Source: a virus
IMG/VR virus record: IMGVR_UViG_3300042904_000293
Span: 1-28,826 of that record
Length of the DNA: 28,826 nt
Direction: 5' to 3' (one strand)
Shown: piece after piece, positions 3,005-27,284 of the stretch
How the letters are laid out: each line of letters begins with the position of its first letter
How positions within the stretch are numbered: position 1 is the first letter of the stretch
Made by a program: the position numbers and the translations under genes
Notes under the pieces: generated by a model
Databases searched by the model: none
What the model was told of the DNA's origin: nothing
What the model saw: only the letters and a program-made list of their open reading frames with translations

Positions 3005-3578
3005 GGTCAAGTACGAAGGTCCCGAGAACCTCGTCTGCGACGACCTGGAGCTCTACAACCAGGGCGCCGAAGCACCGGCGGTTCCGGTAAACGGCGAGGT
3101 CTACGACATCAGCGAGCCCTGGAGCGATGAGATGGTAGAGCGCATGGGTGCCTCCGCCGATCACGCCGCCCGGCTCCGCTCGTTTGTCGCGAGCGCCTAC
3201 TTCTTCCCGCAGGACGCCGAGGCCCAGGATGCCTACGACAACCTCGTGAGGCGTGGCATCGTGGTGGATCCCACGCGGACCAGGGAGATCGCCCGCGCTG
3301 AGGGGGCCGAAGATGCCCCGGTTGAGCTCGACGCAACCGATGGGGCAGTCGCCGAGGCCACGCACTTCGGCATCGACCTCACCGAGGTCGAGATCGAGGG
3401 CTCGGGTTCCGAGGGCCGCATCACCAAGAGCGACGTCGAGGCGTTCGTCGAGGCGAACGGGATAGAAGATCCCGACCAGCGGCCGGCGAGTGATCCGGGT
3501 ACGGGACTCCCACGCCTCCCCGAAACTCCCGTAGAGGATGAGCGACCTACCGATAACGATGAGGGAGGTGAAGCCTAA
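2997..3578 (+). CDS. Acidic virion-module protein with E3-binding-domain-like motif
   Basis: A 193-residue acidic protein from ATG 2997, with AGGAGGG at 2981-2987. Residues 1-100 include a beta-rich start (YEGPENLVCDDLELYN) and a helical part. Residues 117-157 read as an E3-binding or peripheral-subunit-binding motif: an AVAEATHFGIDL helix, then the G-S-G-x-x-G-R-I-T-K-S-D-V-E-A-F signature. In 2-oxoacid dehydrogenases this 35-residue fold binds partner enzymes; here it more likely mediates a protein contact in the virion or during assembly. The last 35 residues are Pro/Asp/Glu-rich and probably disordered. The stop TAA shares its last A with the ATG of the tail tube gene (TAATG), so the two are probably co-translated. 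The specific function is unknown. Confidence 0.75.
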   Translation: MAKVKYEGPENLVCDDLELYNQGAEAPAVPVNGEVYDISEPWSDEMVERMGASADHAARLRSFVASAYFFPQDAEAQDAYDNLVRRGIVVDPTRTREIARAEGAEDAPVELDATDGAVAEATHFGIDLTEVEIEGSGSEGRITKSDVEAFVEANGIEDPDQRPASDPGTGLPRLPETPVEDERPTDNDEGGEA

Positions 3579-4780
3579 TGGGCAAAATCGACGGCTTCGG
3601 TATGGCCCTGATGAACGACACGGTGGAGGCGGCTTCGCCGACCTCCTTCCCACCCGTCACCTCGATGGAGATGGCGGCACAGATCGCGGAGATGACGCAC
3701 GAGGCTACGCTCGGCGGACGTTTCCCAGAGGCCCTGAAGCGTGGCGCCAGGACCTACGCCGGCCCGGCCAACTTCGGCGCGCGGCCAGGCTCTCTGCCGT
3801 ACTTCCTCTCGATGGCCATGGGCAACCCCGTCACTACGAGGGTAGGAACTGTCTGGTCTTCGGGCCAGACATACACTCTCGGGCAGCTTATCATCCACAC
3901 CTCGCCGACGACCAAGGTCTTCGAGGTCACGACCGCCGGCACCGGCGGCACCACTGTACCTTCGGACGCCGGCGCTGTTGGCTCGACCATCGCCGCAACC
4001 TCGGGCACCGCGGTCTTCACCATCCGCGATGCGATCTACAAGCACACCTACTCGCCCGCAACGTCAGGACTTCTGCCGACGCCGGCGACGCTGTGGAAGA
4101 TCATCAAGGACGTCAACCAGCCGGGCCTCGGTACGGCTGATCTGGTAGACCGCTACGGTTGGGGCTATCTCAACGAACTCGGTCTTAGCATCGAGCCGAA
4201 CAACTACTTGCTGGGCTCCGCAGGTCTTGTAGCCAAACGCCTGACAGACCTTGCCGGTGTCGCTCCGGCGATAACCAGAGACGCGAGCGAGCTCTGGTCG
4301 TTCTCGGAGGTCTCGGCGAAGCTCGGGGTGAACGGTGCGGCCGTGGCCGATCACATCCTGACCAACTTCAACATGACCTACTCGAACAACTTCAACACCG
4401 ACAACTTCCAGCTAGGCTCTCTGGAGACCTCGGCCATCCGTCCGGGTAACGTGGGTCTCGGTGTTGGCTTCTCGGCGGCCCAGTCCCTCGAGGCGCACTA
4501 CCGCAGGGCGCTTCAGAATAACCCCGACTCCGTGCAGCTTACGCTGGTCGGCAAGGGCAAGGCGCTCCAGTCGACCATCAACGCCACGACTGCCTACGAG
4601 GAGTTTGGCCTCGACTTCAAGCGCCTCCAGTACACTGAGGCACCGCTGAATATCGACGCGGCCAACGTGCTGACCCAGGTGGCCATCTCCTCCAACGGTG
4701 TGCTCACTCCGGCGGGAGCGTTCCTGGACATCTACGTCGTGAACACGAACAACGGACTCACCTACGTCAAGCCCGCCTAA
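3578..4780 (+). CDS. Major tail (tube) protein with inserted accessory domain
   Basis: A 400-residue protein from ATG 3578, with GGGAGGTG at 3563-3570. Its N-terminus (DTVEAASPTSFPPVTSMEM, then helix and KRGARTYAGP), its long beta-rich body and its place just before the chaperone pair and tape measure identify it as the tail tube subunit, which polymerises into the tail shaft. Residues 91-153 form a probable insertion with TYTLGQLIIHTS, FEVTTAGTGGTTVP and a closing strand AVFTIRDA. This matches a module found twice in the 1,203-aa tail-tip protein downstream, so it probably decorates the outside of the tube. The C-terminus (GVLTPAGAFLDIYVVNTNNG) is strand-rich. At 400 residues it is longer than simple lambda gpV-like tube proteins, which the insertion partly explains. 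A noncoding gap with a strong inverted repeat follows. Confidence 0.82.
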   Translation: MGKIDGFGMALMNDTVEAASPTSFPPVTSMEMAAQIAEMTHEATLGGRFPEALKRGARTYAGPANFGARPGSLPYFLSMAMGNPVTTRVGTVWSSGQTYTLGQLIIHTSPTTKVFEVTTAGTGGTTVPSDAGAVGSTIAATSGTAVFTIRDAIYKHTYSPATSGLLPTPATLWKIIKDVNQPGLGTADLVDRYGWGYLNELGLSIEPNNYLLGSAGLVAKRLTDLAGVAPAITRDASELWSFSEVSAKLGVNGAAVADHILTNFNMTYSNNFNTDNFQLGSLETSAIRPGNVGLGVGFSAAQSLEAHYRRALQNNPDSVQLTLVGKGKALQSTINATTAYEEFGLDFKRLQYTEAPLNIDAANVLTQVAISSNGVLTPAGAFLDIYVVNTNNGLTYVKPA

Positions 4781-4799: not shown

Positions 4800-4827
4800 T
4801 TGACAGGCACGTAACTTCTGGCATACT
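4800..4827 (+). promoter_or_regulatory. Candidate sigma-70-type promoter upstream of the tail chaperone genes
   Basis: A perfect -35 hexamer TTGACA (4800-4805) is followed after 16 bases by CATACT (4822-4827), a four-of-six match to the -10 consensus. Expected transcription would begin near 4835 and read into the chaperone and tape measure genes. The -10 hexamer starts at the last base of the left arm of a perfect inverted repeat and extends into its loop, so it could be controlled by a protein bound to that repeat. Confidence 0.55.
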
Positions 4828-4844
4828 TCCGCCAGAAGTTACGT
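4809..4844 (+). promoter_or_regulatory. Perfect 14-bp inverted repeat between tail tube and chaperone genes (operator or terminator)
   Basis: ACGTAACTTCTGGC (4809-4822) and GCCAGAAGTTACGT (4831-4844) are exact reverse complements around the eight-base loop ATACTTCC. As RNA this would be a very stable hairpin that could end or attenuate transcription of the abundant tube mRNA, but no T-run follows (CCGTCG). As DNA it is a dyad overlapping the -10 region of the candidate promoter, as expected of an operator. Confidence 0.7.
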
Positions 4845-4857
4845 CCGTCGAGTGTGT

Positions 4858-4866
4858 AGGGAGGAA
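4858..4866 (+). promoter_or_regulatory. Ribosome binding site that sets the chaperone G start at 4870
   Basis: AGGGAGGAA lies here, with its GGAGG core ending five bases before GTG 4870. The same frame also has a GTG at 4852, upstream of this site, which therefore cannot be the start served by it. Confidence 0.75.
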
Positions 4867-4869
4867 AGC

Positions 4870-5535
4870 GTGACGCAGGAGTACATTGACGCGGAGAGGG
4901 CCGTCGCAGAGCAGGTCGACGTAGGGGAAGTCCTCTACGAGAGGAAGATCAAGTGTAAGAATTTCGCTGGCGAGGCCGACCGTGAGGAGAGCGTGTGGCT
5001 TCGCGAGATGACGGAGGATGACGTCCGGGCTCGTACCCGCATCCTGACCGAGCAGAAGATCGCGAGGAAGAAGGGCCGGCAGCAGGACGTCGAGTTCCAC
5101 GCCGAGCGCATCAGGATCTTCGACTTCTCCCGTTCGATCGAGCATTGGGAGCTCACGCGCGAGAAGCGCGATGAGATGGGCAACATCATATGGGCGGTCC
5201 CGCCAGAGTTTCACCTCAACCCGGATGGCTCCATCAAGAAGTCTTCCAAGTCTGGCATCCCGCTCATCAAGAACCTGGATAAGGTCGAGGCGGTCAGGGA
5301 GATGCGGCCACTCAACCCCGAGGGGATCAGGACCCTCCCGCAGTATCAGGGAGACCAGATCAACCAGGAGATCCAGGACATCAACGACATCCCCGATCCT
5401 GACGAGGATGACGAGAAGAAGGCCAAGAAGGACATCGACCCCGGTGGTGAGTCAATAGGGTCACAGCGAGCCTACGAGGAGGCCCTGAGAGAGTCCTCCG
5501 GTGAGGAGGAAGCGCTAGTAGGGGACCCTATCTAG
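4870..5535 (+). CDS. Tail assembly chaperone, G-like (zero-frame product)
   Basis: A 221-residue acidic, helical protein starting at GTG 4870. It lies between the tail tube and tape measure genes, the fixed position of tail assembly chaperones, which coat the tape measure while tube subunits polymerise around it and are absent from the finished virion. Recognisable features are the strand-helix segment KIKCKNFAGEADREESVWLREMTEDDV (residues about 28-54; a common pattern for this family) and an unstructured acidic tail (IPDPDEDDEKKAKKD). The frame ends at TAG 5533-5535. A second coding frame opens just before the stop and shows no start codon of its own, so this product is probably also extended by a -1 ribosomal frameshift to 357 residues. 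Sequence alone does not identify the family beyond these points. Confidence 0.8.
   Translation: MTQEYIDAERAVAEQVDVGEVLYERKIKCKNFAGEADREESVWLREMTEDDVRARTRILTEQKIARKKGRQQDVEFHAERIRIFDFSRSIEHWELTREKRDEMGNIIWAVPPEFHLNPDGSIKKSSKSGIPLIKNLDKVEAVREMRPLNPEGIRTLPQYQGDQINQEIQDINDIPDPDEDDEKKAKKDIDPGGESIGSQRAYEEALRESSGEEEALVGDPI
5503..5535 (+). other. Programmed -1 ribosomal frameshift window (G to G-T)
   Basis: The -1 frame has a stop (TGA 5502-5504) and the zero frame stops at TAG 5533-5535, so a shift must happen within these 33 bases. No classical X-XXY-YYZ heptamer is evident. The best re-pairing is at C-CCT-ATC (5526-5532), where a proline tRNA on CCT can slip to CCC just before the stop. A-GGG-GAC (5520-5526) is a weaker alternative. 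The first would join ...VGDP to YLEYVREW.... Confidence 0.65.
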
Positions 5536-5942
5536 AGTACGTCAGGGAATGGACGCAAGCTAAACTTGCGCAAGCGGATGGAGAAGAGTGGGCAGAGAGG
5601 TTCTTCGAGGAGAAAGCAGAGGAGGGGGAGTTTCCTCCCGAAGAGCTGAGCGACTACCTTTACTGGTGGAGGTGGGGCGAGCACCCCGAGCATCTGCCCT
5701 CTCGGAAGAAGAGTCACATCTATCACTACTACTTCAACCACATCCACGCCATGAGAAGCGAGTGGGAGAAGGAGAAGTACGACAAGGCCGAGGAGGACCC
5801 GGAGGAAGCCTCGGACACGTCCGGCGAGGCATCGGAGATCCCCGAAGGAGCAACCGGCGGCGGCAAGGAGGGGGCGGACCTGGAGAAGGAACTCCTCTCC
5901 AAGGGCGGGAAATTTCCGACCCTCTCGAAGCCCTTCGGATAA
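5505..5942 (+). CDS. Tail assembly chaperone extension, T-like (made by -1 frameshift)
   Basis: This frame is open from 5505 to TAA 5940-5942 but has no ATG, GTG or TTG before ATG 5751, which lies in the middle of clearly protein-like sequence. The first part, YLEYVREWTQAKLAQADGEE followed by WAERFFEEKAEEGEFPPEEL, then DYLYWWRWGEHPEHLPSRKK and SHIYHYYFNHIHAM, is rich in aromatic residues and typical of the T domain, which recruits tail tube subunits. The last 55 residues are acidic and Gly/Glu-rich. The expected product is a 357-residue G-T fusion made at low frequency together with the 221-residue G protein. A separate 63-residue protein from ATG 5751 cannot be excluded but lacks a convincing ribosome binding site. 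Confidence 0.78.
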   Translation, partial: GGSASRGPYLEYVREWTQAKLAQADGEEWAERFFEEKAEEGEFPPEELSDYLYWWRWGEHPEHLPSRKKSHIYHYYFNHIHAMRSEWEKEKYDKAEEDPEEASDTSGEASEIPEGATGGGKEGADLEKELLSKGGKFPTLSKPFG

Positions 5943-6007: not shown

Positions 6008-6035
6008 CTCTGTGCTACGCAGCTAAGGCTACCCC

Positions 6036-9000
6036 ATTAACGATCGCGACATAGAGGTAATCCTCCGGGTTCGCTCCGAACTCGACAAGCTCCAGCGCGA
6101 GCTACGTGATACCAAGCGCGCGGCCGAGGCGGTCGACGGTACGGACCTTGAGATCGAAGCCCGCTTCAGGGAAGAAGAGCTTAAGCGCGGTATCGCGGCG
6201 GCACAGGACATGGTTCGGAAAGCCTTCAAGGGGAAAGCCAACGAGATACGCTTCGCTGTACGTAAGGGTGACCTTGATGCTTTGGAGGACCTGCGCAAGG
6301 AGTTTACCGACAAGCGCATGGAGATCGAGGCCAAGGTCAAGAGCGATGAGGCCCGCGATGAAGTCGATGATCTGGGGCGGCGCCTTCAGCGCCTCGGGGC
6401 CATGCGCATATCAGCGGAGGCCGACCTAGACGGCGACCAATTCGACCGGGAAGTTGCCAAACTTCTCCGGGAAGCGAACAAGATAGAGGGCGCTGTATTC
6501 CAGGCGCGGCTCGATTCCGACGGATCCGAACAGGTGGAAGCGGCTATCGACCGCGCTTTAGCTTCGCTCCGAGATTTCGATGGAGAGACCGCCACCGCCA
6601 TCCTCCGGGTCCGCGGCGAGTCGGGAGTCAATGAAGCCGCCAAGCTGCGCTCGTCGATCGGTGATATCGAGGTAGAGGCAAAGGTCAATCTCGGCAGCTC
6701 CCTCGCCTCACTCGCATCATTTACCAAGGGGCTTACTACCTCAAAGACGGCGGGCTCGGGCCTCGTGCGCGAGATGAATGTTGTCTCCGCCGGCATTCAG
6801 CTCGTCACCCGTGCCATGATCGTCGCCGCTGCCGCCGGTGCTCTGCCGCTCGCCGGAGCGTTCGGCACCCTCGTCGGCGCCCTCGGTGGAGCTGTCGCAG
6901 GATTCGGACTTCTGGCCGCCGCCGCCGCACCTTCGATCGTCGCCATGAGCGAACACGAGGAAGCACAGAACAGAGTCGCATCCGAGACCAACTCTCTAGA
7001 ATCGGCGCAGCGGAGCTACCGTGATGCCCTCGAGCAGGTCGAAGAGACGCAGCGCTCGACCAATCAGGCTGTTGCCGAGGCTGCGAGAGCCTACCGGGAG
7101 TCCCTCGAGGCCATAGACCAGGCACGAGAAGAGGCGAGGGCGGGGGTCGAAGATGCGATTGAGTCCTACCAGCAGTCCCTACGTGACCTCGCAGAGACGA
7201 CTTTGCAGGCTAACCGCCAGGTCGCCGATGCCGCCCGCGCCGCAGCGGAGGCCGAGCGGAATCTCGCCCAGGCCAAGATAGAAGCTCGGCAAGCCGAGCA
7301 GGATGCGCTTGAATCGCTTGCCGAAACCGAGCGAGAACTTGCGCAAACCCGGCGCGATGTAGCCGAGCAGATTCAGGAAGCCTACGCCTCCTACAAGGAT
7401 TCTGTTGAAGCTATCGCCGAGGCTGAAGTGGCAGCGCGTGAGCAGGTCGCAGAAGCAACCAAAGAAGTGCAGGCTGCCGAGCGTGAATTGGCCGAAACCC
7501 AAGCCGCCGTACGCCAAAGAATCGCAGAAGCTACAGAGGCGCTTGCTGAGGCACATGAAAATCTTCGCGAGACAGCTCGCGACGTAGCCGAGCAGAACGC
7601 CGAGGCGTGGCGGTCCTACCAGGAGGCCCTAAAAGGCGTTCAGGAAGCAGAAGCGGAAGCTGCACGCAACAACCGTGAAGCGATGCAGGAATACAAGGAA
7701 GCAATAAAGGCTGTCGCCGATGCGAGACGAGAGGCTGCCCAGCAGGTCAAGGAGGCTATACGAGCTGAGGCCGAAGCCGAGCGAAATCTGGCCCAGACGA
7801 GGCGTGAAGTAGCGCAAGATATCCAAGAAGCTATTCAGGCGCAGCGGGAGGCCGAGCGCGACCTAGCCCAGACGGTGCGTGAAGTGGCCCGGGATATCAA
7901 AGAGGCCATCCGAGCCGAAGCCGAGGCGGCACGCGACCTAGCCCAGACGCGCCGCGATGTAGCCCAGGATATCCGGGATGCCATCCGCGATGTAGCAGAA
8001 GCCGAGCGCGACCTGGCAGAGGCTCAGCGCGATACAGCCGAGCAGATCAAGGACGCCTGGCAGTCGTATCAGGAGGCCGTGGAGGCCGTCGGTGAAGCCC
8101 AGCAAGAGGCTCACGAGAACGTACAGAATGCGATAGAGGCGCACCGCGAAGCCGTAATAGACCTTGCGGATACCCAGCGGGAAGCAGCCGAGAGGGTGCG
8201 CGATGCACTTGAGTCGCAGGCTGATGCGGCTCGCGATCTCGCAGACGCGAGAGAGGATACAGCCAAGCAGATCCGTGATGCGATCGAGTCTGAGGCCGAG
8301 GCGAGGCGTGACCTTGCGGACGTTGAGCGCGATGCGGCCAAGCGGATAATCGACGCCAGGGACGCCATAGCCGATGCTGATGAGGCGGCCATAGAGGCTG
8401 CCGAGAAGGTGGCTGAAGCGCGTGAAAATCTCATAGACATCACGCTCTCCGTTGCCGAAGCCCAGCGCGAGCTGAATGCGGCGATGCGCGAGGAGCCTTT
8501 CGAGGTCGAGCAGCTAGAGCTGAATCTCCAGGACGCCAGGCTCAAGGGCGCGGAAATCGCAGCGCAAATCGCCGAGCAGCAGCGGATACTCGCGATAGCA
8601 CGCGAGTACGACTACGCGCCGGGCATGGCGGTTACAGAGCAGGATATTGCTAGGCTCCAGCTCGAGCAGGCACAGAACGCACTCGATCAGAGGAAGGCCG
8701 AACAAGCCCTCGCCGAAGCGAGGGCCAATGGTTCCGAGAATTTGCAGAGCGCCCAGGAGCGCTACCAGGAAGCCTTAGACAAACAACGCGAGGCTATCGA
8801 GGCTATCGCCGATGCCGAGGAGGCGCGGACCGAGGCGACCCAGGCCGCGGCAGAAGCCCGTATCGAATACAACGAAACGATTCTCGAGCAGCAGCGCAGG
8901 ATCCTCGATGCCGAGAGGAAGCTGCATGAGGCCGAGGAGGCTATTGTTGAGGCGCGGGTCGAGGGTGCCAGGCGCATTGAGGACGCCCAGAGGCGATTCG

Positions 9001-12000
9001 CCGAATCCGTCCGCACCGTCGCGGAAGCCCAAAGGGACGCAGCCCGGGCCGTAGCAGAAGCTCAGGAGCGGGTCGCGGAGACGGCCCAAGAAATTATCGT
9101 TGCCCAGCGCGAAGGAGCAGAGGCAGTCCTCGAGGCCCAGGAATCGGCTCGCGAGGCATATAGCGCCTACCTCGAAGCGCAAATCGAGGGGGCGCGGCGG
9201 ATACGTGAGGCACAGAGGGCGATCCTGGAGGCCGAGCGCAACCTCGCCCGCACTCGCATTGAAGGCGCCCAGCAGATACGTGAGGCAGAGAGGGCGCTAC
9301 TGGAAGCGACGCGCAACATCACCCGTGTTCGGATCGAGGGTGCGCGTCAGATACGCGAGGCGGAAAAGGCGCTACTGGAAGCGACTCGCAACGTCACCCG
9401 TGTTCGGATCGAGGGTGCCCAGAGGATAAGAGAAGCCGAGCGAAATCTGGCCGAGGCAACCAGAGCCGTCATCCGGGCCCAGAGAGAGGGCGCGCAGGCC
9501 ATTAGAGAGGCCCAGGAAAGAGCGCTTGAATTGGCGCGCGAAGTTGTGCGGGTTCGCAGGGAGGGCGAGAAGTCGATCGCCGAGGCGCACAGACAAGCGA
9601 TGGAGCAATTCAGGAACTACGTCGAGACCGTCAGAGAAGGAAACGAGCGCATGGCGGAGGCTCAAGAGGAAGTCCGCAAGCGCGAGCAAGAAGTAAGGAT
9701 AGCTCGCAGAGAGGGCGCTCGCGAGATCCAGGCGATGTATGCCAACCTTATACAGTCTCAAAGAAACCTCGTCAATGCCGAGAACGAAGGCGTCAAGGAT
9801 GTTCGGGAGGCCCGAGAGCGCTCTCTCGAGGAGTTTGAGAATTACCTCGATACCATCACTGAAGGGAATGAGCAAATCGCCGAGGGCGAGCGGCGTGTCA
9901 AGGAGGAGCACGAGAACGTCGCCCAGGTCCGTCGGGAGGGCATCCAACGTGTACAGGAAATGGAGCGGGCGCTCAACGAAGCCGAACGCAACTGGCACCG
10001 CGCCCGCGTGGATAGGGCCAATGCAATTAAAGAAGCAAACATCAAGGTCGCCGAGAGCTACGAGGGCATAGGGGAGGCAAGGAAAAAGGGCGCGGAGCTG
10101 ATCGCTGCCGCCGAAGAGGACGCCGCAAACAAACTCCGCGCCCTGCACCAGGCGCAGATTGACCGGGCAAACCAGATGCGCGACGCCCACCAGGCAGTTG
10201 AGGACGCACAGAAGGATCTGAAGCAGGCCATAAAGGATCTGACTGATGCCCTCAATGACGAGGGTGTGAAGCTACACCAATTCGAGAAAGACCTCATCAA
10301 GAGGTGGAAGAAGCTGTGGGAAGACTGGGAGTTCTATTCTCGCCCGGCCCGTAAGGTCCTCGCTCGCATTGCGATCGACGTCATGGATCTTACGACCAAG
10401 GCGTTCCCGGCCCTCGGAGAGGCGGCCGAGGAGAGCGCTCTGGCCCTGGAGGAATCCTGGCAGAGGTTCAAGGAGAACATCACAAAGCCTAAGCAGCTCG
10501 AGCTGCTTCAGGAGATCCTGGACAGGCTCCCGGGCCTGACTCGTCAGGCTGCGAACGCCGCATCGGATATCGTTCTTACCGGCATAAACATCTTCGCGGC
10601 ATCCCTGCCAGCGGCCAAGGATTTTTTCCAGTACGTCAACCCGAAGCTGAATGATCTCAGGAATTGGTCTTCTTCAGAAAAGGGGCAGAACTCACTCAGA
10701 GACTTTTTCAAGGCGGGCGAGGAGTTCGCGGAGAAGGTGCTGGACACCATCGGCCGTGTGCTCAAAGGTCTCGGGAAACTAAGCAACCATCCCGGCTCAA
10801 AAGAGTTCATCAACCGGGTGCTAGATTTTGTGGGTGAAGTTGGGGATAACCTGCCTGTGCTCGGCGAGTGGTTCGAGGTTATGAACGATATCGCTGGTGC
10901 GATCGGCTGGGTGATCCAGAAGCTCGACAAGGTGCGCGAGAAGATCAACAACGCGGCTGATGCGTGGCAGAAGTGGACGCCGGCCTGGCTCGATCCGATT
11001 ATGAAGAAGATCGAGAAACTCACGGACGAAGAGCTCTCGGACATGCTCATCAAGCTCGGGCTCATCTACGGTGCCTACCGTTTCCTTGGCGGCCGTCTCG
11101 TCATAAGCGCGATCACCTCAGTCGGTACGGCGATCGCAACCCACGTACTGCCGCGTCTACTCACCTGGCTGACGAGGCTTCGTCTGATAAACCGCACTCC
11201 GCCCAACCCGATCCCGACGCCTACGGCGTGGCCGACCACGGGGCCGGGCGGTCCGATGGTATCGCCCAGGCCGGATACCTCAAGGAGCACGGCGCGCAAG
11301 CTCGCCGACGGCTTCAAGAAGGTCATCGCAAGTGCGATCGCCCTTATGGCCGGCGTGGGTGGACTGATCGCCCTTAGCGCTCTGGCCATCGGCCTCCTCG
11401 TCTACATCGTCTGGAAGTACGACCACCAGAAGGCCGCGGCCGAGTTCAAGAAGTCGATGGAGGAAGGGAAGAAGGCGGGCAAGGAAGCAGGGGACAACTA
11501 TACCGACTCGCTGGCCAACGCCATCATCGCCGGCCTCTCAGACGTGCCGCTTCTCGGTCCGTTCCTCGAGTGGCTTAACAAGAACATCATCCAGCCCGGT
11601 GATGAGGCTCTCGGCAAGTGGGATCCGATCGACTACTGGGTGCAGGAGCTCCTCGGCAAGGGACCGCCCAAGGGTCTCGGGCCGTTCGGGCAGGGTCTCA
11701 TGGAAATGATAATAGCCGGCATGAGGCAGATGCCGCTTATCGGTCCCTTGATCCAGCTCATAGAGCAGGCGTTCGGTCAGGGCCGGGACAAGAGCAAGGG
11801 CTTGAACTGGAAGGGCATCGGCTCCGCTGCTATCGAAGCCATCCTCTCGGGTCTAAGGAACACTCCCTTTATCGGTCCGGTCATACAATTCATCGAGTCG
11901 TGGTTCACGAAGTCTCGGGATAAGTCCAAGGGCTTGAGCTGGAAGAACATAGGCTCTGCTGCCTGGAACGCGATCAAGGCCGGGATACCCGGAGCGGGTC

Positions 12001-14144
12001 TTATCGGGGCCGCGGTGAAGTCGATCGGTGATTGGTTCACCCGTTCCAACAACTCCTCGAAGGGACGCAACTGGAAGGGCATCGGCTCCTTTGCCTGGAA
12101 TGCGATCAAGCGGGCGCTACCTGGAGCAGGGCTGATAGCCTTCGCCGTCGAGCAAATCGGGAACTGGTTCACCCGCTCCAACAATTCATCGAAGGGGCGT
12201 AACTGGAAAGGCATCGGATCGTTCGCCTGGAACGCCATAAAGAGGGCGCTGCCCGCTGTGGGTCTTATCGCTGCGGCGGTAGAGCAGATCGGGAACTGGT
12301 TCACACGGTCGAATAGCTCCTCCAAGAATCGCAACTGGAAGGGGATCGGCTCCTTTGCCTGGAACGCTATCAAGAGAGCTCTACCCGGAGCTGGCCTGAT
12401 AGCGTTCGCGGTAGAGCAGATCGGGAACTGGTTCACACGGTCGAACACTTCCTCGAAGAATCGCAACTGGAAGGGCATCGGCTCCTTTGCCTGGAACGCC
12501 ATCAAGCGGGCGCTGCCGGCCGTAGGTCTTATCGCAGCGGCCGTGAAGCAGATCGGCGACTGGTTCAACCGCTCCAACACCTCTTCAAAGAATCGCAACT
12601 GGAAGGGGATCGGATCGTTCGCGTGGAACGCTATCAAGCGGGCGCTGCCGGCCGTGGGCCTCATCGCCGCGGCCGTGAAGCAGATCGGTGACTGGTTCAC
12701 TCGATCGAACAACTCCTCGAAGAATCGCAACTGGAAGGGCATCGGCTCCTTTGCCTGGAATGCCATCAAGCGGGCCTTGCCGGCTGTAGGTCTTATCGCA
12801 GCGGCCGTGAAGCAGATCGGCGACTGGTTCACGCGGTCGAATAACTCGTCGAAGCAGCGCAACTGGAAGGGTATCGGTTCAGCCGCCTTCAACGCCATCA
12901 AGAACGCGATACCCGGAGTTGGCCTGATCGCTGCTGGGGTGAAGGCGATCGGTAACTGGTTTACGAAGTCGAGCTCCTCCTCCAAGAATCGTAACTGGAA
13001 AGGCATCGGCTCGGCTGCGTTCAACGCGATCAAGAATGCGCTGCCCGGGGTGGGACTTGTTACCGCTGGCGTGAACATAATCAGGAATTGGTACAACCGG
13101 ACGGTCAAGGAGAAGAACTCCAAGAACTGGAAGGGCATCGGCTCCAGTGTCATCACGGCGATCAAGGCGGGCGTTGGGGGAGCTCCCGCGATCGGCACCG
13201 GCATCATCGCCTCCATCCTCAAGGGCATGGACGTTAAAAAAATGATTGAGGAGGGTAAGAAAAAGGGCCAGAACTTCATCGACGGTTTCAGAAAATGGGT
13301 CCATTGGGAGTACGAAGGTAAGCAATCAGGCGGGGAGCTGAACAAGGGTATAAACGGCATCAACTTCTGGGAGACGGGTCGCAACAAGGGCGAGAATTTC
13401 AAGGCTGGCTTTAACTGGCATCACTGGAACTCCCTGGGTTGGAACGTGGCGATCGGTATTTTCAACGGCATCAACCACTACAACTTCTGGAACCTTGGGC
13501 ACAACAAGGGTCAGAACTTCGTGCAGGGCTGGAACGCTGCGACGCAGATCCGCTCGCCCTCGAAGGTGATGTACCGCTCAGGCCGTGACACCGTGCTAGG
13601 TGCCGTGCAGGGCATCGAAGCTACCGCGCCGCTGGCGGTGCGGGCGGCCGAGGACATGGCGAACAAGGTAACTGACGCCATGAAGCAGACCGAGGCGACT
13701 GTCGTAGCCGACACCATCGGCCGCGAGGTGCGCGCGTTCCGTACTCGCGAGAGAAACTACGCAACGCACATGCAGCGGCGTCTCGCCCTCGCCAAGCGTG
13801 TCAACCGGGAGATCGCCCGCTCGCAGGGAGAGACGATCGGACGTGCGTCCCCCGATGCGCCTTCGGCGACCACCCGGACGCACCGCTCGCGCATCTCGCC
13901 CGAGCCGTTCGGTCCGTCCGCCGGCGGGAGTGCGCCGGCGCCCAATGTCGAGGTCAACGTCAATATCTCCGAGGGTGCGGTCAAGGTAGAGGGTGCAGGC
14001 GGCGACCCCGTGGCGGTTAGCGAAGAGATCCTACAGCAGTTGATTGCTAGAATGGGACCCGAGATGAAGCGCCAAATCCTAGCGACGCTTGCCGAGGCCG
14101 ACGAGGCACGCGCCTCTTATCGAACAGGTTCGAGAGGAGGCTAG
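6036..14144 (+). CDS. Tape measure protein, about 2,700 residues
   Basis: Sets tail length and is ejected ahead of the DNA. From an ATT start at 6036 it has 2,702 residues; the first ATG in frame is 6210 (2,644 residues), but the 58 codons before it encode typical tape-measure N-terminal sequence (IEVILRVRSELDKLQREL) and the in-frame stop is at 6024-6026. In order: charged helices; a hydrophobic Ala/Gly-rich segment (DNA 6801-6951); about 1,100 residues of coiled coil (6950-10270) with a 25-residue period; a mixed helical domain; a second hydrophobic segment (11311-11415); ten 44-residue repeats (11784-13103); and a C-terminal part with the family motif IRSPSKVMYRSGRDTVLGAV (about 13545-13604), ending in GPEMKRQIL. 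No lysozyme or peptidase domain is seen. The stop is three bases before the next gene. Confidence 0.95.
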   Translation: MNDRDIEVILRVRSELDKLQRELRDTKRAAEAVDGTDLEIEARFREEELKRGIAAAQDMVRKAFKGKANEIRFAVRKGDLDALEDLRKEFTDKRMEIEAKVKSDEARDEVDDLGRRLQRLGAMRISAEADLDGDQFDREVAKLLREANKIEGAVFQARLDSDGSEQVEAAIDRALASLRDFDGETATAILRVRGESGVNEAAKLRSSIGDIEVEAKVNLGSSLASLASFTKGLTTSKTAGSGLVREMNVVSAGIQLVTRAMIVAAAAGALPLAGAFGTLVGALGGAVAGFGLLAAAAAPSIVAMSEHEEAQNRVASETNSLESAQRSYRDALEQVEETQRSTNQAVAEAARAYRESLEAIDQAREEARAGVEDAIESYQQSLRDLAETTLQANRQVADAARAAAEAERNLAQAKIEARQAEQDALESLAETERELAQTRRDVAEQIQEAYASYKDSVEAIAEAEVAAREQVAEATKEVQAAERELAETQAAVRQRIAEATEALAEAHENLRETARDVAEQNAEAWRSYQEALKGVQEAEAEAARNNREAMQEYKEAIKAVADARREAAQQVKEAIRAEAEAERNLAQTRREVAQDIQEAIQAQREAERDLAQTVREVARDIKEAIRAEAEAARDLAQTRRDVAQDIRDAIRDVAEAERDLAEAQRDTAEQIKDAWQSYQEAVEAVGEAQQEAHENVQNAIEAHREAVIDLADTQREAAERVRDALESQADAARDLADAREDTAKQIRDAIESEAEARRDLADVERDAAKRIIDARDAIADADEAAIEAAEKVAEARENLIDITLSVAEAQRELNAAMREEPFEVEQLELNLQDARLKGAEIAAQIAEQQRILAIAREYDYAPGMAVTEQDIARLQLEQAQNALDQRKAEQALAEARANGSENLQSAQERYQEALDKQREAIEAIADAEEARTEATQAAAEARIEYNETILEQQRRILDAERKLHEAEEAIVEARVEGARRIEDAQRRFAESVRTVAEAQRDAARAVAEAQERVAETAQEIIVAQREGAEAVLEAQESAREAYSAYLEAQIEGARRIREAQRAILEAERNLARTRIEGAQQIREAERALLEATRNITRVRIEGARQIREAEKALLEATRNVTRVRIEGAQRIREAERNLAEATRAVIRAQREGAQAIREAQERALELAREVVRVRREGEKSIAEAHRQAMEQFRNYVETVREGNERMAEAQEEVRKREQEVRIARREGAREIQAMYANLIQSQRNLVNAENEGVKDVREARERSLEEFENYLDTITEGNEQIAEGERRVKEEHENVAQVRREGIQRVQEMERALNEAERNWHRARVDRANAIKEANIKVAESYEGIGEARKKGAELIAAAEEDAANKLRALHQAQIDRANQMRDAHQAVEDAQKDLKQAIKDLTDALNDEGVKLHQFEKDLIKRWKKLWEDWEFYSRPARKVLARIAIDVMDLTTKAFPALGEAAEESALALEESWQRFKENITKPKQLELLQEILDRLPGLTRQAANAASDIVLTGINIFAASLPAAKDFFQYVNPKLNDLRNWSSSEKGQNSLRDFFKAGEEFAEKVLDTIGRVLKGLGKLSNHPGSKEFINRVLDFVGEVGDNLPVLGEWFEVMNDIAGAIGWVIQKLDKVREKINNAADAWQKWTPAWLDPIMKKIEKLTDEELSDMLIKLGLIYGAYRFLGGRLVISAITSVGTAIATHVLPRLLTWLTRLRLINRTPPNPIPTPTAWPTTGPGGPMVSPRPDTSRSTARKLADGFKKVIASAIALMAGVGGLIALSALAIGLLVYIVWKYDHQKAAAEFKKSMEEGKKAGKEAGDNYTDSLANAIIAGLSDVPLLGPFLEWLNKNIIQPGDEALGKWDPIDYWVQELLGKGPPKGLGPFGQGLMEMIIAGMRQMPLIGPLIQLIEQAFGQGRDKSKGLNWKGIGSAAIEAILSGLRNTPFIGPVIQFIESWFTKSRDKSKGLSWKNIGSAAWNAIKAGIPGAGLIGAAVKSIGDWFTRSNNSSKGRNWKGIGSFAWNAIKRALPGAGLIAFAVEQIGNWFTRSNNSSKGRNWKGIGSFAWNAIKRALPAVGLIAAAVEQIGNWFTRSNSSSKNRNWKGIGSFAWNAIKRALPGAGLIAFAVEQIGNWFTRSNTSSKNRNWKGIGSFAWNAIKRALPAVGLIAAAVKQIGDWFNRSNTSSKNRNWKGIGSFAWNAIKRALPAVGLIAAAVKQIGDWFTRSNNSSKNRNWKGIGSFAWNAIKRALPAVGLIAAAVKQIGDWFTRSNNSSKQRNWKGIGSAAFNAIKNAIPGVGLIAAGVKAIGNWFTKSSSSSKNRNWKGIGSAAFNAIKNALPGVGLVTAGVNIIRNWYNRTVKEKNSKNWKGIGSSVITAIKAGVGGAPAIGTGIIASILKGMDVKKMIEEGKKKGQNFIDGFRKWVHWEYEGKQSGGELNKGINGINFWETGRNKGENFKAGFNWHHWNSLGWNVAIGIFNGINHYNFWNLGHNKGQNFVQGWNAATQIRSPSKVMYRSGRDTVLGAVQGIEATAPLAVRAAEDMANKVTDAMKQTEATVVADTIGREVRAFRTRERNYATHMQRRLALAKRVNREIARSQGETIGRASPDAPSATTRTHRSRISPEPFGPSAGGSAPAPNVEVNVNISEGAVKVEGAGGDPVAVSEEILQQLIARMGPEMKRQILATLAEADEARASYRTGSRGG
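9294..9418 (+). repeat. Near-identical 75-bp direct repeats in the tape measure coiled coil
   Basis: A 50-base block beginning GCGCTACTGGAAGCGAC at 9294 recurs at 9369 with about two differences. It is part of a wider 75-bp (25-codon) period encoding RIEGA-x-x-IREAE units. The same period is seen earlier, for example at 7857 and 7932, encoding ERDLAQT and ARDLAQT units. Confidence 0.8.
11784..13103 (+). repeat. Ten tandem 132-bp (44-residue) repeats in the tape measure gene
   Basis: Units start at 11784, 11916, 12048, 12180, 12312, 12444, 12576, 12708, 12840 and 12972. Each encodes x-x-S-S-K-x-R-N-W-K-G-I-G-S, then an amphipathic helix (FAWNAIKRALP), a hydrophobic helix (GLIAAAVKQIG) and D/N-W-F-T-R-S. 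Units 3-8 are nearly identical, the flanking ones diverged, and degenerate copies extend the array on both sides (about 11500-11783 and 13104-13230). Some alternate units share the PGAG..AFAVEQIGN or PAVG..AAAVKQIGD version, suggesting duplication of one- and two-unit blocks. Confidence 0.92.
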
Positions 14145-18964: not shown

Positions 18965-19955
18965 GTCCTCTCTCCCGTCCGTACCTTCGTCTGTTTCACC
19001 CTACCAGATCCCCGACCTCGCCAGGCGTCAGGCCGATCAGGAGCAAAAGCAGGTAGAGGCGGTGGTCGCCGCCATAGGTCTTCAGAAGATACGCGCTACG
19101 GTCGTGGCCGTCGATGAGCCCAACTCCTCCATACAGGTCATGCGCATCACGAACACGATCGCCGATGAGCCCTTCTACCCCGTCCGCGGTGGAGCGATGC
19201 CGGAGGTTGACGATCTGGTCTTCGGCTTTGAGGACTCGGGTGGGCCTGTCTTCATTGGCAACCTTGGTGGGGGTAGTGGAGTCCAGCCTCCCATAGGCTC
19301 GATGATGAATTGGGCCGGTGCTACGGACCCGGCGGATACAACGTGGCTGATCTGCGATGGGCGTACCGTCTCTGCCACAACATACCCGGAGCTGCTCCTG
19401 GTCTTGGGAACGACCTGGAATATTGGCGGTGAGGCGGCGGGCACATTCAGGCTACCGGATCTCAGGGGGCGCGTGGCAGTCGGCGCAGGCACAGGCACAG
19501 GTCTTTCTGCCCGAACCGTAGCACAGAAGGCGGGCGCCGAAACCGTAGTGCTCACAACGGCTCACTTGCCAGCGCACGATCACGGCGGAGCAACCGGAAA
19601 CGATACGCACGATCACGGCGCGGCGACCGGGGACAACACCCACAGCCACGGCGGGGCAACCGGCAACGACACGCATTCTCACACTGGTGACTCGACCGTC
19701 AGCTTCGGCGTCGTCGGGCCGGGCACGGCCCTCTCGGGCGGCGGCTCTCACAACGTTATGGTAAATGGCTCCCACACGGATACCGGCTCCACGCTCGGCG
19801 ACACCCACAGCCATACTATCTCGGGGGTCACTCATAGCCACACCGTTGCGGGCGACACCCACAGCCACACCATCTCATCAGTCGGGAGCGGTACGGCGCA
19901 CGACAACATGCCGCCGTGGGTCGGGATGCACCAGATCATCCGGGTGCTGCCGTAG
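18957..19955 (+). CDS. Tail fibre/spike with OB-like N-terminus, collar domain and HxH repeats
   Basis: A 332-residue protein from GTG 18957, with AAGGGG at 18942-18947, overlapping the hub gene. Residues 40-110 (KIRATVVAVDEPNSSIQVMR ... VDDLVFGFEDSGGPVFIGNL) look like the OB fold of spike-type proteins that plug a hub. Residues 114-178 are a phage tail collar domain: GSMMNWAGATDPADTTWLIC, DGRTVSATTYPELLLVLG and FRLPDLRGRVAVG. Residues 207-308 are Gly/Thr/His-rich repeats with seven H-x-H motifs, then NMPPWVGMHQIIRVLP, the usual collar-fibre ending. The protein is probably a trimeric tip fibre whose H-x-H motifs bind metal, as in T4 gp37. It ends the tail-tip block: the next gene is exported and has its own promoter-like sequence. 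Confidence 0.85.
   Translation: MSESSLPSVPSSVSPYQIPDLARRQADQEQKQVEAVVAAIGLQKIRATVVAVDEPNSSIQVMRITNTIADEPFYPVRGGAMPEVDDLVFGFEDSGGPVFIGNLGGGSGVQPPIGSMMNWAGATDPADTTWLICDGRTVSATTYPELLLVLGTTWNIGGEAAGTFRLPDLRGRVAVGAGTGTGLSARTVAQKAGAETVVLTTAHLPAHDHGGATGNDTHDHGAATGDNTHSHGGATGNDTHSHTGDSTVSFGVVGPGTALSGGGSHNVMVNGSHTDTGSTLGDTHSHTISGVTHSHTVAGDTHSHTISSVGSGTAHDNMPPWVGMHQIIRVLP
19575..19880 (+). repeat. Histidine-rich repeats in the collar fibre gene
   Basis: Three 33-bp units (19575, 19608, 19641) encode HDHGGATGNDT, HDHGAATGDNT and HSHGGATGNDT, with a partial fourth at 19674. After a spacer, three 27-bp units (about 19800-19880) encode THSHTISGV, THSHTVAGD and THSHTISSV. Confidence 0.85.
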
Positions 19956-23867: not shown

Positions 23868-26800
23868 ATGGCTATTGCTCATAGGGCTACGGAGCAGTAC
23901 GCCGCGACCACGACCGCCACGACGCACGATTTCACGATCCCCGCGTCAGCACAGGTAGACGACATCCTGATCCTCTGTGCGGGGAATAGGCAAATCGGCA
24001 ACGATCCGGCGCAGCCGAGTGGATGGGAACTTGGTTCTATCGACGCCACCGGGGCAGCGCATAACCTGGCAACCCTCTGGCGGAAGTGCCAGGCAGGAGA
24101 CCCCGGTAGTACCGTGACTCTCACGTGGCCGTCGGCCACGGAGGCGCAAGGCGGGATAGTCGCCTATAGCGGTGTGGACACCGTGACCCCGATGGACGTG
24201 GCCTTGGCGAAGATCGTCGCGAACCCCTCCTCGAACACGCACACCGCACCCACGATCACACCCGCGAACAACGACACGCTCCTGGTACACGTCTGGGTCT
24301 CCGGCGGTATCTCACCGTGGGCATCAGCAGACGCGGGTACGCAGCGCTACAACGCGATAGCGACGGCAACGCCTCGGGCTGTCTTATATGTTGACCGACC
24401 TGGACCCGCTGCTGGCGTCCCCTCTAGCGCCATAACTGCGACGCTCTCGGCCTCGGCGGTGCAGCAAGCAACGATGCACACGCTGGCCTTACGCGCAGCA
24501 GCGCCGACCGGGGAGACGCTCAGGCCAACCGGAGTCTCCGGCCTATCGAACCTCACTGGATCGCACACGGACATAGACGAAGACCCTGACGGCACGATCA
24601 CTGATGCGGGCCTGATCGGCTCCGACCCTAGCGGCACACCGCCAAACATCACGTTCGAAGGCAGCGTAGATAACACCGGCAACCCGACGACGAGCACGAG
24701 CGTCACGATCCCGGCTACGGTCAACGATGGTGACATCATCCTCGTCAGCGTGGTCAACGGCGACGGCACGGCACAGCCGACTATCTCCGATAACTCCGGT
24801 GTTGGGAACTGGACTGACAACACCAACGGCGGGGTAGCCAAGTTCCAGGCTGGTACGGCGATGGCTGGGGCGGTGTTCTGGAAGCGAATCACCAATCAGG
24901 CGGTAGAACGCTCAAAGGTAGTCTCGCTCGGCGGCATCACTGGCTCAACTTGCGCGAACCTATCCGTCAGGCGCGGGTGCGTGGCATCTGGCTCTCCCAT
25001 AGACGGGACGCCAGTGTCGGAGGGCAACGCGAGCGGTAACAACACGCAGGCCGGGATCACAACGCTTACCGATGGTGCGGCGGTCCATGTGGTCGTGTTC
25101 TACTCGGACAACACCGCAGTTACTACGAACATGGTTGCCACCTCTCCCGCAACGATAACAAAGGGCGGGGAGATTTACTCCTCGGGTGGCAACGACTCAG
25201 GGCTTGCCCATTTCCGGGAGATCAAAGCCACGGCTGGCGCTACTGGCGCGTTCACTTGGGCACCCGGCACGAACCAAGTCAGTACGTCGATAGCTTTCGC
25301 GCTCAAGCCCGCGAGCTCTCCAGCGCAGACGGTCAACACACAAGCTGATGTAGCGATGGGAAATCCGGTAGGGGCTCTTGCTACTGGCGCGGGAACCGGA
25401 GAGATCCGATCACGTATCCGCAAGAAGGGTACGGGCAGCGATCCACAAGGGCGCATCGAGCTAAGGAACGCAGCGGGCACCCTGCTTGGTACGCCAGTCA
25501 CCGACCGGGCGATCACCGAAAGCGACGCTAATGGGCAAACTGCCAATGCCTTCTTTAACCAGTCGATCATTCTCAACTCGGCAGACGTCGTGCTCAGGTT
25601 CGTTGGTACGGGGGCCTCCGGTGGACTCGCCGAGCTCGTCGCCGTGGAGTGGAATGCACAGATCGCCACAGTCGCCAACGTCGACCTATCGGGAACACTG
25701 GCCGGTGGTGGTGCTGCGTGGACCGGGACGCTGGAGGTTACGGATCTCCTGGCCGGCACTCTCTCTGGTGGTGCTGCGTGGACAGCTACGCCGGAGAGTA
25801 CCGACCTCCTCAGTGGGACAGTGGCCGGCATTGGTGCTGCATGGACCGGAGCGCTACAGGTAATAGATAACCTCTCGGGCACAATCTCTAGCAGCTCCTC
25901 CTGGAGTGCCACGCTGGAGGGGACAGACCTTCTCTCGGGTACACTCGCCGGTGGCGCCGCCTGGAGTGCCACGCTCGAATCAACCGATCTTCTCTCGGGG
26001 ACTCTTGCGGGTGGCGGGGCGGTGTGGACTGCACCCCATCCGGTAATTGTTCCGGTAGACCTCGCCGGCACACTCGCCGGCGGCGCAGCGTGGAGCGGAG
26101 CGCTAGAGGTTACGGATCTTCTCTCAGGTACGCTCTCGGGGGTAGGCGGACCGTGGAGCGGAGCGCTAGAGGTTACGGATCTCCTCTCGGGTACGCTCTC
26201 CGGGGGAGCTGCCTGGTCGGCTACACCTCAGATCACACGCTCGCTCGGCGGTACGCTCGCAGGGGGCGCAACGTGGAGTGCTACGCCGGAGGTATCGCGC
26301 CTCCTTGCGGGGACGCAGACAGGGCTTGCGAGGCCATGGACGGCAGCGCTGGAGGTTACGGACCTCCTCGCCGGCACGCTCCTTGGTGGTGCGCCGTGGG
26401 GCTCGACCCCACTCGAGGCGACCGATGCACTCTCGGGCACAGTCGCCGGCGGCGGCGTAGCATGGCAAGCACAGATAGAGGTTACGAAGTCTCTAGCGGG
26501 TACGCTCCTTGGCGGAGCTTCATGGACGGCCACACCTCAGATCACACGCTCGCTTACGGGCACGCTCCCTGGCGGAGCTGCATGGACGGGTACGCCGGAG
26601 GGTACGGATCTCCTGGCCGGTACACTCTCTGGTGGTGCTGCGTGGACCGCATCACTTGGCGGCGACAAACTACTTGCGGCCACCCTACTCGGGGGCGCGT
26701 CGTGGTCGGCTGCCCTCCAGGTCAGCAGGCACCTTGCGGGAACGATCCCCGCACCCGGCGCTGCGTGGTCTGGTGGTGTCGTTGTAACGCGCAACCTCGC

Positions 26801-27284
26801 CGGCACACTTGCGGGAGGGGCGGTCTACTCGGGGCTACTCCGCGTCGAACGCAATCTCGGTGGCACACTCATGGGCGGAGGCGTGCCTTGGGTAGCTGCA
26901 TTTGCGGGATTCCCGGTAGACTTCTCCGGTACGATGGGAGGAGGAGCCTCGTGGTCGGCCTCGCTGGAGGTGACACGGACCCTCGCCGGTCTTGCTCAAG
27001 GTGGAGCATCCTGGGGTGTGCTTGTTTCGCCCGAGGTAACACGAGCTCTGGGCGGCGTTCTCTCCCCTGACGAATACCACTATCTGGGCAGCGCCGAGAT
27101 CAGCCGGCTCATGTCAGGGTCTCTCCTTGGAGGCAGTCCCTACTCAGGGATACTCGGCCTCGCCATGACTATGCCGTGGGAGGATGCGATCCTCTTCCTC
27201 CAGGTGGCGGCAGCATTCGGCGTCAAGATCGAGGTCGTTCCCGCTATTGGTGCTCGCGTAGCAGTAGGGGAAGACGCTACGTAA
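23868..27284 (+). CDS. Large tail fibre-like protein with about 24 C-terminal repeats
   Basis: A 1,138-residue protein from ATG 23868, six bases after the previous stop. Residues 1-210 and about 235-480 are two copies of a beta-sandwich domain common in phage receptor-binding and minor tail proteins: IPASAQVDDILILCAG in the first, IPATVNDGDIILVSVVNGDG in the second, each ending in HTLALRA or SIAFALKP. A third sandwich follows (about 485-600, ending AELVAVEWNAQ). Residues 605-1101 are about 24 repeats of about 20 residues, consensus L-(S/A)-G-T-L-(A/S)-G-G-A-A-W-(S/T)-A-x-(L/P)-E-V-T-D/R-L, probably stacking as a beta-solenoid stalk. A hydrophobic C-terminus with MTMPWEDAILFLQVAAAFGV ends the protein. 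No catalytic motif is seen. It is probably a host-binding fibre. AT-rich noncoding DNA follows. Confidence 0.82.
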   Translation: MAIAHRATEQYAATTTATTHDFTIPASAQVDDILILCAGNRQIGNDPAQPSGWELGSIDATGAAHNLATLWRKCQAGDPGSTVTLTWPSATEAQGGIVAYSGVDTVTPMDVALAKIVANPSSNTHTAPTITPANNDTLLVHVWVSGGISPWASADAGTQRYNAIATATPRAVLYVDRPGPAAGVPSSAITATLSASAVQQATMHTLALRAAAPTGETLRPTGVSGLSNLTGSHTDIDEDPDGTITDAGLIGSDPSGTPPNITFEGSVDNTGNPTTSTSVTIPATVNDGDIILVSVVNGDGTAQPTISDNSGVGNWTDNTNGGVAKFQAGTAMAGAVFWKRITNQAVERSKVVSLGGITGSTCANLSVRRGCVASGSPIDGTPVSEGNASGNNTQAGITTLTDGAAVHVVVFYSDNTAVTTNMVATSPATITKGGEIYSSGGNDSGLAHFREIKATAGATGAFTWAPGTNQVSTSIAFALKPASSPAQTVNTQADVAMGNPVGALATGAGTGEIRSRIRKKGTGSDPQGRIELRNAAGTLLGTPVTDRAITESDANGQTANAFFNQSIILNSADVVLRFVGTGASGGLAELVAVEWNAQIATVANVDLSGTLAGGGAAWTGTLEVTDLLAGTLSGGAAWTATPESTDLLSGTVAGIGAAWTGALQVIDNLSGTISSSSSWSATLEGTDLLSGTLAGGAAWSATLESTDLLSGTLAGGGAVWTAPHPVIVPVDLAGTLAGGAAWSGALEVTDLLSGTLSGVGGPWSGALEVTDLLSGTLSGGAAWSATPQITRSLGGTLAGGATWSATPEVSRLLAGTQTGLARPWTAALEVTDLLAGTLLGGAPWGSTPLEATDALSGTVAGGGVAWQAQIEVTKSLAGTLLGGASWTATPQITRSLTGTLPGGAAWTGTPEGTDLLAGTLSGGAAWTASLGGDKLLAATLLGGASWSAALQVSRHLAGTIPAPGAAWSGGVVVTRNLAGTLAGGAVYSGLLRVERNLGGTLMGGGVPWVAAFAGFPVDFSGTMGGGASWSASLEVTRTLAGLAQGGASWGVLVSPEVTRALGGVLSPDEYHYLGSAEISRLMSGSLLGGSPYSGILGLAMTMPWEDAILFLQVAAAFGVKIEVVPAIGARVAVGEDAT
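25680..27170 (+). repeat. About 24 diverged 60-66-bp repeats in the 1,138-aa fibre gene
   Basis: Units begin near each L-(S/A)-G-T-L, the first at 25680 (VDLSGTLAGGGAAW) and the last near 27110 (LMSGSLLGGSPYSG). Unit length is mostly 20-22 codons. Some neighbours, such as the pair around 26100-26210, are nearly identical in DNA, while distal units are diverged. Long open frames in other phases here are side effects of the repeat composition. Confidence 0.85.

Follow-up and report, generated by a model that had tools for sequence, protein, structure and literature searches.

An old, highly constrained array of ten 44-residue repeats in the tape measure protein of an uncultivated phage

What keeps ten closely similar copies of a 44-residue unit in a single phage protein? 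The window analysed here, a stretch of 28,826 nucleotides from an uncultivated virus of bacteria, encodes a tape measure protein (TMP) that carries such an array, and the initial annotation took it for a product of recent duplications that could alter tail length and perhaps insert into membranes. Our data indicate that the units are instead old and individually constrained, and we weigh below what each of them may be kept for.

That the gene encodes a siphovirus-type TMP is supported by both profile similarity and gene order. The 2644-aa ORF matches five PHROG tape-measure profiles (1272, 1686, 6090, 4372, and 1293; E 3e-10 to 1e-4), its residues 1186-1575 match TMPs of Microbacterium and Curtobacterium phages (tblastn, E to 6e-11), and it is the longest gene of the tail cluster, lying 3' of a tail protein and two overlapping chaperone-like frames (Table 1). 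Connector and tail genes upstream of the TMP, preceded on an overlapping contig by genes for an HK97-type portal, protease, and capsid, mark the phage as siphovirus-like; no close named relatives were found. The two chaperone-like frames (within 4804-5942) are acidic, stand in a -1 relation with an overlap at 5505-5535, and occupy the usual position of a G/GT chaperone pair, the T-like frame containing 13.8% aromatic residues. No canonical slippery heptamer was recognised and no family match was found for either gene. The TMP frame itself is open from 6027, and the 61 coding-like codons at 6027-6209, 5' of the ATG at 6210, include no ATG, GTG, or TTG; a rarer upstream start codon, such as ATT, is possible. 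Elsewhere in the window, a 1138-aa protein (23868-27284) contains two-copy tandem repeats of 60-63 bp at 25900-26016 and 26082-26206, and a tail collar protein a 33-bp triple repeat at 19573-19675.

The array consists of ten gapless head-to-tail units of exactly 44 residues (132 bp) at 11784-13103, in frame within the ORF (TMP residues 1859-2298), as first described. Its self-alignment scores +4.34 per position at lag 44 and at most -0.48 at all other lags from 3 to 59, a gap too wide for a chance pattern. These limits hold for the core, which extends slightly into a half-degenerate unit on either side (units 0 and 11 in Table 1). Twelve positions are identical in all ten units (S4, K5, W9, K10, I12, G13, S14, A16, A19, I20, I37, and W40). 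The proposed W-K-G-I-G-S start fits nine units, unit 2 reading WKNIGS, and the proposed D/N-W-F-x-R-S end fits seven, the others reading SWFTKS, NWFTKS, and NWYNRT. The alternation of unit types was borne out, PGAGLIAF in units 3 and 5 against PAVGLIAA in units 4 and 6-8, with DNA identity highest at a lag of 264 bp. Opposite the array, an antisense frame of 541 aa is open (11777-13402, minus strand), most likely as a by-product of the repeats and high G+C content of the coding strand.

Table 1. Coordinates of the tape measure protein, its segments, and neighbouring tail genes in the window.
Feature	Position	Strand	Remarks
Major tail protein candidate	3578..4780	+	matches PHROG 290 (minor tail protein), 2e-19; named from its place in the gene order
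Probable tail assembly chaperone, G-like, acidic	4852..5535	+	from gene order and charge; no family match
Probable T part of G/GT chaperone pair	5505..5942	+	overlapping open frame, -1 relative to G; putative
Tape measure protein (TMP) gene	6210..14144	+	2644 aa from ATG; five PHROG tape-measure profiles
N-terminal hydrophobic stretch of TMP, residues 198-239	6801..6926	+	approximate dG scan
Acidic coiled-coil rod, residues 251-1350	6960..10259	+	25-residue period, net charge -80
Only strong transmembrane segment, residues 1716-1734	11355..11411	+	approximate dG -2.3 kcal/mol
Degenerate unit 0	11652..11783	+	34% aa identity to unit 1; upstream-region profile match E 0.002
Repeat unit 1 (divergent)	11784..11915	+	
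Repeat unit 2	11916..12047	+	
Repeat unit 3	12048..12179	+	type PGAGLIAF
Repeat unit 4	12180..12311	+	type PAVGLIAA
Repeat unit 5	12312..12443	+	type PGAGLIAF
Repeat unit 6	12444..12575	+	type PAVGLIAA; DNA closest to unit 8
Repeat unit 7	12576..12707	+	type PAVGLIAA
Repeat unit 8	12708..12839	+	type PAVGLIAA
Repeat unit 9	12840..12971	+	A/F variant
Repeat unit 10 (divergent)	12972..13103	+	
Degenerate unit 11 (NWKGIGSSVITAIK...)	13104..13235	+	unit HMM E 1e-7
SPSKVM motif, residues 2449-2454	13554..13571	+	common to Gibbles and fHoEfm07 TMPs; looser in Poco6

The central units had been called nearly identical in DNA, which our measurements do not bear out. The six central units share 82-98% of their residues and only 75-92% of their nucleotides, and the longest exact repeat in the array is 47 bp. 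Between them dN is 0.01-0.12, while dS lies between about 0.3 and more than 2, most values being close to 1 or higher and so saturated; individual values are rough, since each derives from a single pair of 44 codons. Their pairwise codon differences comprise 253 synonymous and 66 nonsynonymous changes, whereas random change would yield a synonymous share of only 24%. At positions with the same residue, units use the same codon at a frequency of 0.54, compared with 0.43 expected from random draws on the phage's codon usage. Protein identity and codon sharing are uncorrelated over the 45 unit pairs (rho -0.18, p 0.24; the pairs are non-independent), which argues that the units closest in protein are not those of most recent origin and that their likeness is held by selection. 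Saturated dS, near-random codon sharing, and the absence of this correlation together show that the units are old and each under strong purifying selection, not recently expanding. Similar codon scrambling is seen in the best-preserved 25-residue coiled-coil units of the same TMP (64-88% aa identity) and in the repeats of other TMPs, where the protein is much less alike (0.02-0.68, to be read as lower bounds because several unit frames are only roughly set).

The unit sequence appears to be new. Apart from this record it was found solely in IMGVR_UViG_3300045996_001307, a 99.98% identical contig (two mismatches in 9825 bp). A tblastn search of 50,697 phage records with the array (E up to 1), and scans of viral contigs and 84,980 species genomes with a unit profile and single proteins, gave nothing beyond this contig, although the scans may omit records of the genome to which the window belongs; PDB sequence and Pfam searches gave no match. 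Searches for cousin phages through the terminase, the 1203-aa tail protein, and the capsid returned only contigs with 100% identical matches. The repeat count proposed for related phages could be made in a single relative, which has the same units in the same order up to its end inside unit 10 (window position 13080). An apparent missing unit in its tblastn alignment (608 codons against 652 query residues) was discarded, as direct alignment gave the same units. This contig gives no sign of copy-number variation, but so near a relative cannot show that the number is fixed.

The repeat had been thought without parallel in other tape measures; this stands for the unit sequence, and the kind of feature is known. 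Tandem 11-residue W/F repeats have been described in siphovirus TMPs, including 44-aa (132-bp) blocks with four copies in each of two Bacillus cereus-group prophages and three copies in a third (Belcaid et al., 2011; PMC3271669). The array resembles these in being tandem, aromatic-marked, predicted helical, inside a TMP, and of equal block length; it differs in its ten copies, its Gly/Pro turn, its strong positive charge, and the lack of an 11-residue sub-period, lags 11, 22, and 33 scoring about -1. The published W/F patterns (every 11, or 11-11-18), tested in shortened form, did not match the array, and the Pfam 'TMP repeat' model PF05017 scored 8.3 against a gathering cut-off of 15. Three of the five TMPs that we fetched for comparison contain tandem blocks of 38-57 residues (Kithara 38, Poco6 42 and 57, fHoEfm07 44), the ReqiPoco6 TMP having two different blocks of its own, of 57 and about 42 residues, at residues 797-1024 and 1358-1525. 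The closest in layout is the Enterococcus phage fHoEfm07 TMP (residues 1000-1175), which shares the 44-residue period, a helix-Pro-helix appearance, and a location before an SPS[KR] motif, which follows directly there as SPSR and lies at residue 2449 here, but whose block is more hydrophobic, with 32-39% identity between its units. Homology between the two was tried and set aside: hhalign gave a probability of 0.85% and a score of 14.2, and 60 shuffles scored up to 14.9. The array belongs to a known and recurrent kind of feature, TMP tandem repeats, of which it is a striking variant that is old and highly constrained.

Where a single hydrophobic helix per unit had been suggested, AlphaFold2 models of two and four units predict two helices split by a Pro/Gly turn, at low confidence (pLDDT 38 and 55 for the four- and two-unit models) and with packing that is not readable; each unit would then be a helix, a Pro/Gly turn, a second helix, and a polar linker. 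Foldseek found no match to the two-unit model among viral structures at E ≤ 0.001. The amphipathicity suggested earlier stood for both helices, hydrophobic moments peaking at 95-100 degrees per residue (per-unit shuffle p 0.004-0.073), with Trp near both ends. The array has a net charge of +53 over 440 aa, compared with -80 in residues 251-1350.

Based on these properties and on a precedent in TP901-1, we propose, with about an even chance of being right, that the array is a chaperone-binding part of the rod, located towards the tip end and contributing to tail length. Deletions within the repeats and within the first hydrophobic region of the TP901-1 TMP give proportionally shorter tails; its hydrophobic stretches have been connected with binding of the chaperone, and its C-terminus has been placed at the tip (PMC5099701). 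In both proteins, aromatic repeats accompany hydrophobic stretches in the part that determines length, the repeat spacing being 11/18 residues there and 44 here, with six predicted membrane spans there against one strong segment and amphipathic units here. The array would be the C-terminal aromatic/hydrophobic repeat segment of the TMP, flanked by the transmembrane segment and the SPSK motif, its cationic, amphipathic helix-turn-helix units exposing Trp/Ile faces that the acidic G/GT-like chaperone probably keeps soluble and in register during tail assembly; the segment would then lie inside the tail tube near the tip and contribute to the measured length. An identical contact made by every unit would explain why every unit is kept by purifying selection. 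The TMP identity rests on the five profiles and gene order, and the array itself, its age, constraint, amphipathicity, charge, and position in the protein are shown by the sequence. Against this proposal stand the lack of a family match for the G/GT-like genes, the weak structure predictions, and the array's lack of an 11-residue W/F period, the feature that the proposal of chaperone registration concerned. Purifying selection on the units does not identify their binding partner. We considered charge complementarity between array and chaperone as specific evidence and rejected it, because most proteins of the cluster are acidic and the acidity of the G/GT-like genes is ordinary.

Next in standing, as a tentative alternative, is membrane-active delivery, in which the ejected cationic, Trp-rich units bind the anionic interface of the host membrane and, with the transmembrane segment, form or line a channel for DNA. 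The positive charge adds a clue to the amphipathic, Trp-flanked helices, since among five other TMPs the most positive 440-aa stretch reaches +40, in Gibbles, and those of the remaining four +5 to +28. The strong transmembrane segment lies about 120 residues N-terminal to the array, and in T5 a C-terminal hydrophobic segment of the TMP pb2, likewise near the tip, has been proposed to enter the membrane (PMC10038345); that segment comprises 46 hydrophobic residues, compared with 440 residues of cationic amphipathic units here. Insertion of the units themselves, as first suggested, fared less well: none scores as transmembrane (about +3.4 to +3.9 kcal/mol, compared with -2.3 for the upstream segment) in a dG scan that is simplified and approximate in scale and weighting. 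In TP901-1, a membrane role of the hydrophobic regions was judged unlikely or unprovable, the second region being dispensable (PMC5099701). A PDB sequence search for solved membrane-active or antimicrobial-peptide-like matches gave none at E ≤ 10. A bolder version, which we consider improbable, holds that the ten selection-frozen, Trp-flanked units, which presumably resemble helix-hinge-helix antimicrobial peptides, form a membrane-destabilising chain delivered by the tip ahead of the DNA, with silent sites scrambled for array stability.

We find it still harder to accept that the array is a pure spacer adding only 44-residue length steps, its sequence being of little importance. Tail length does follow TMP residue count in published deletions (PMC5099701), so a length role is plausible, and units have been duplicated in the past, as the similarity at lag 264 and the alternation of types show. 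The strong constraint on each unit argues against a mere spacer, the central units being far better conserved in protein than the best coiled-coil units at similar codon scrambling, and fixed W, G, and I positions are unexpected for one. The suggested change of tail length in 44-residue steps finds no copy-number difference in the other contig, and the accompanying 6.6 nm per unit is arithmetically right for an uninterrupted helix, an unlikely form given the Pro/Gly turns and the polar SNxSSKxR linkers. The truer ruler marking may be the 25-residue period of the coiled coil, which runs almost gap-free in two registers (about residues 251-725 and 901-1325) with a lag-25 identity of 0.315; other lags give 0.11, and none of 500 shuffles exceeded 0.142. 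Twenty-five helical residues span ~3.75 nm, close to the roughly 4 nm spacing of the 40 rings in the 160-nm T5 tail (PMC10038345).

Recent expansion, with unequal recombination changing copy number, is very unlikely in view of the saturated dS, the 47-bp limit on exact repeats, and the low codon sharing of adjacent units, the lowest of all (0.495, compared with 0.52-0.58 at greater distances). In its favour, the end units are more divergent, as expected for tandem arrays, and one tract points to duplication: 12066-12567 resembles 12330-12831 at a lag of 264 bp, consistent with a two-unit event of greater age, and the best-matching 132 bp within it (12435 against 12699, 93.9% identity) is the only more recent tract visible, the part of the earlier claim of one- and two-unit duplications that holds. 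The second contig breaks inside unit 10, although exact repeats there are at most 47 bp; population variation is one possible reason, and up to the break the contig has the same units. Least probable of all is that codon scrambling was itself selected, preventing recombinational deletion so that ten copies stay: adjacent units do share the fewest codons, units 3 and 4 only 14 of 38 (16.6 expected) at 93% aa identity, but age with purifying selection yields an equal pattern and no pair falls significantly below random expectation (lowest z -0.93).

A TMP is commonly regarded as a length ruler whose sequence is under loose constraint. In this one, the ten paralogous units provide an internal evolutionary experiment in which silent sites are nearly randomised and the unit protein is almost frozen, suggesting that each unit probably makes the same specific contact. 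Where repeat arrays of phages are nearly identical in protein, silent sites need checking before recent expansion is inferred. The array makes the spacer, chaperone-binding, and membrane-active roles of TMP repeats testable.
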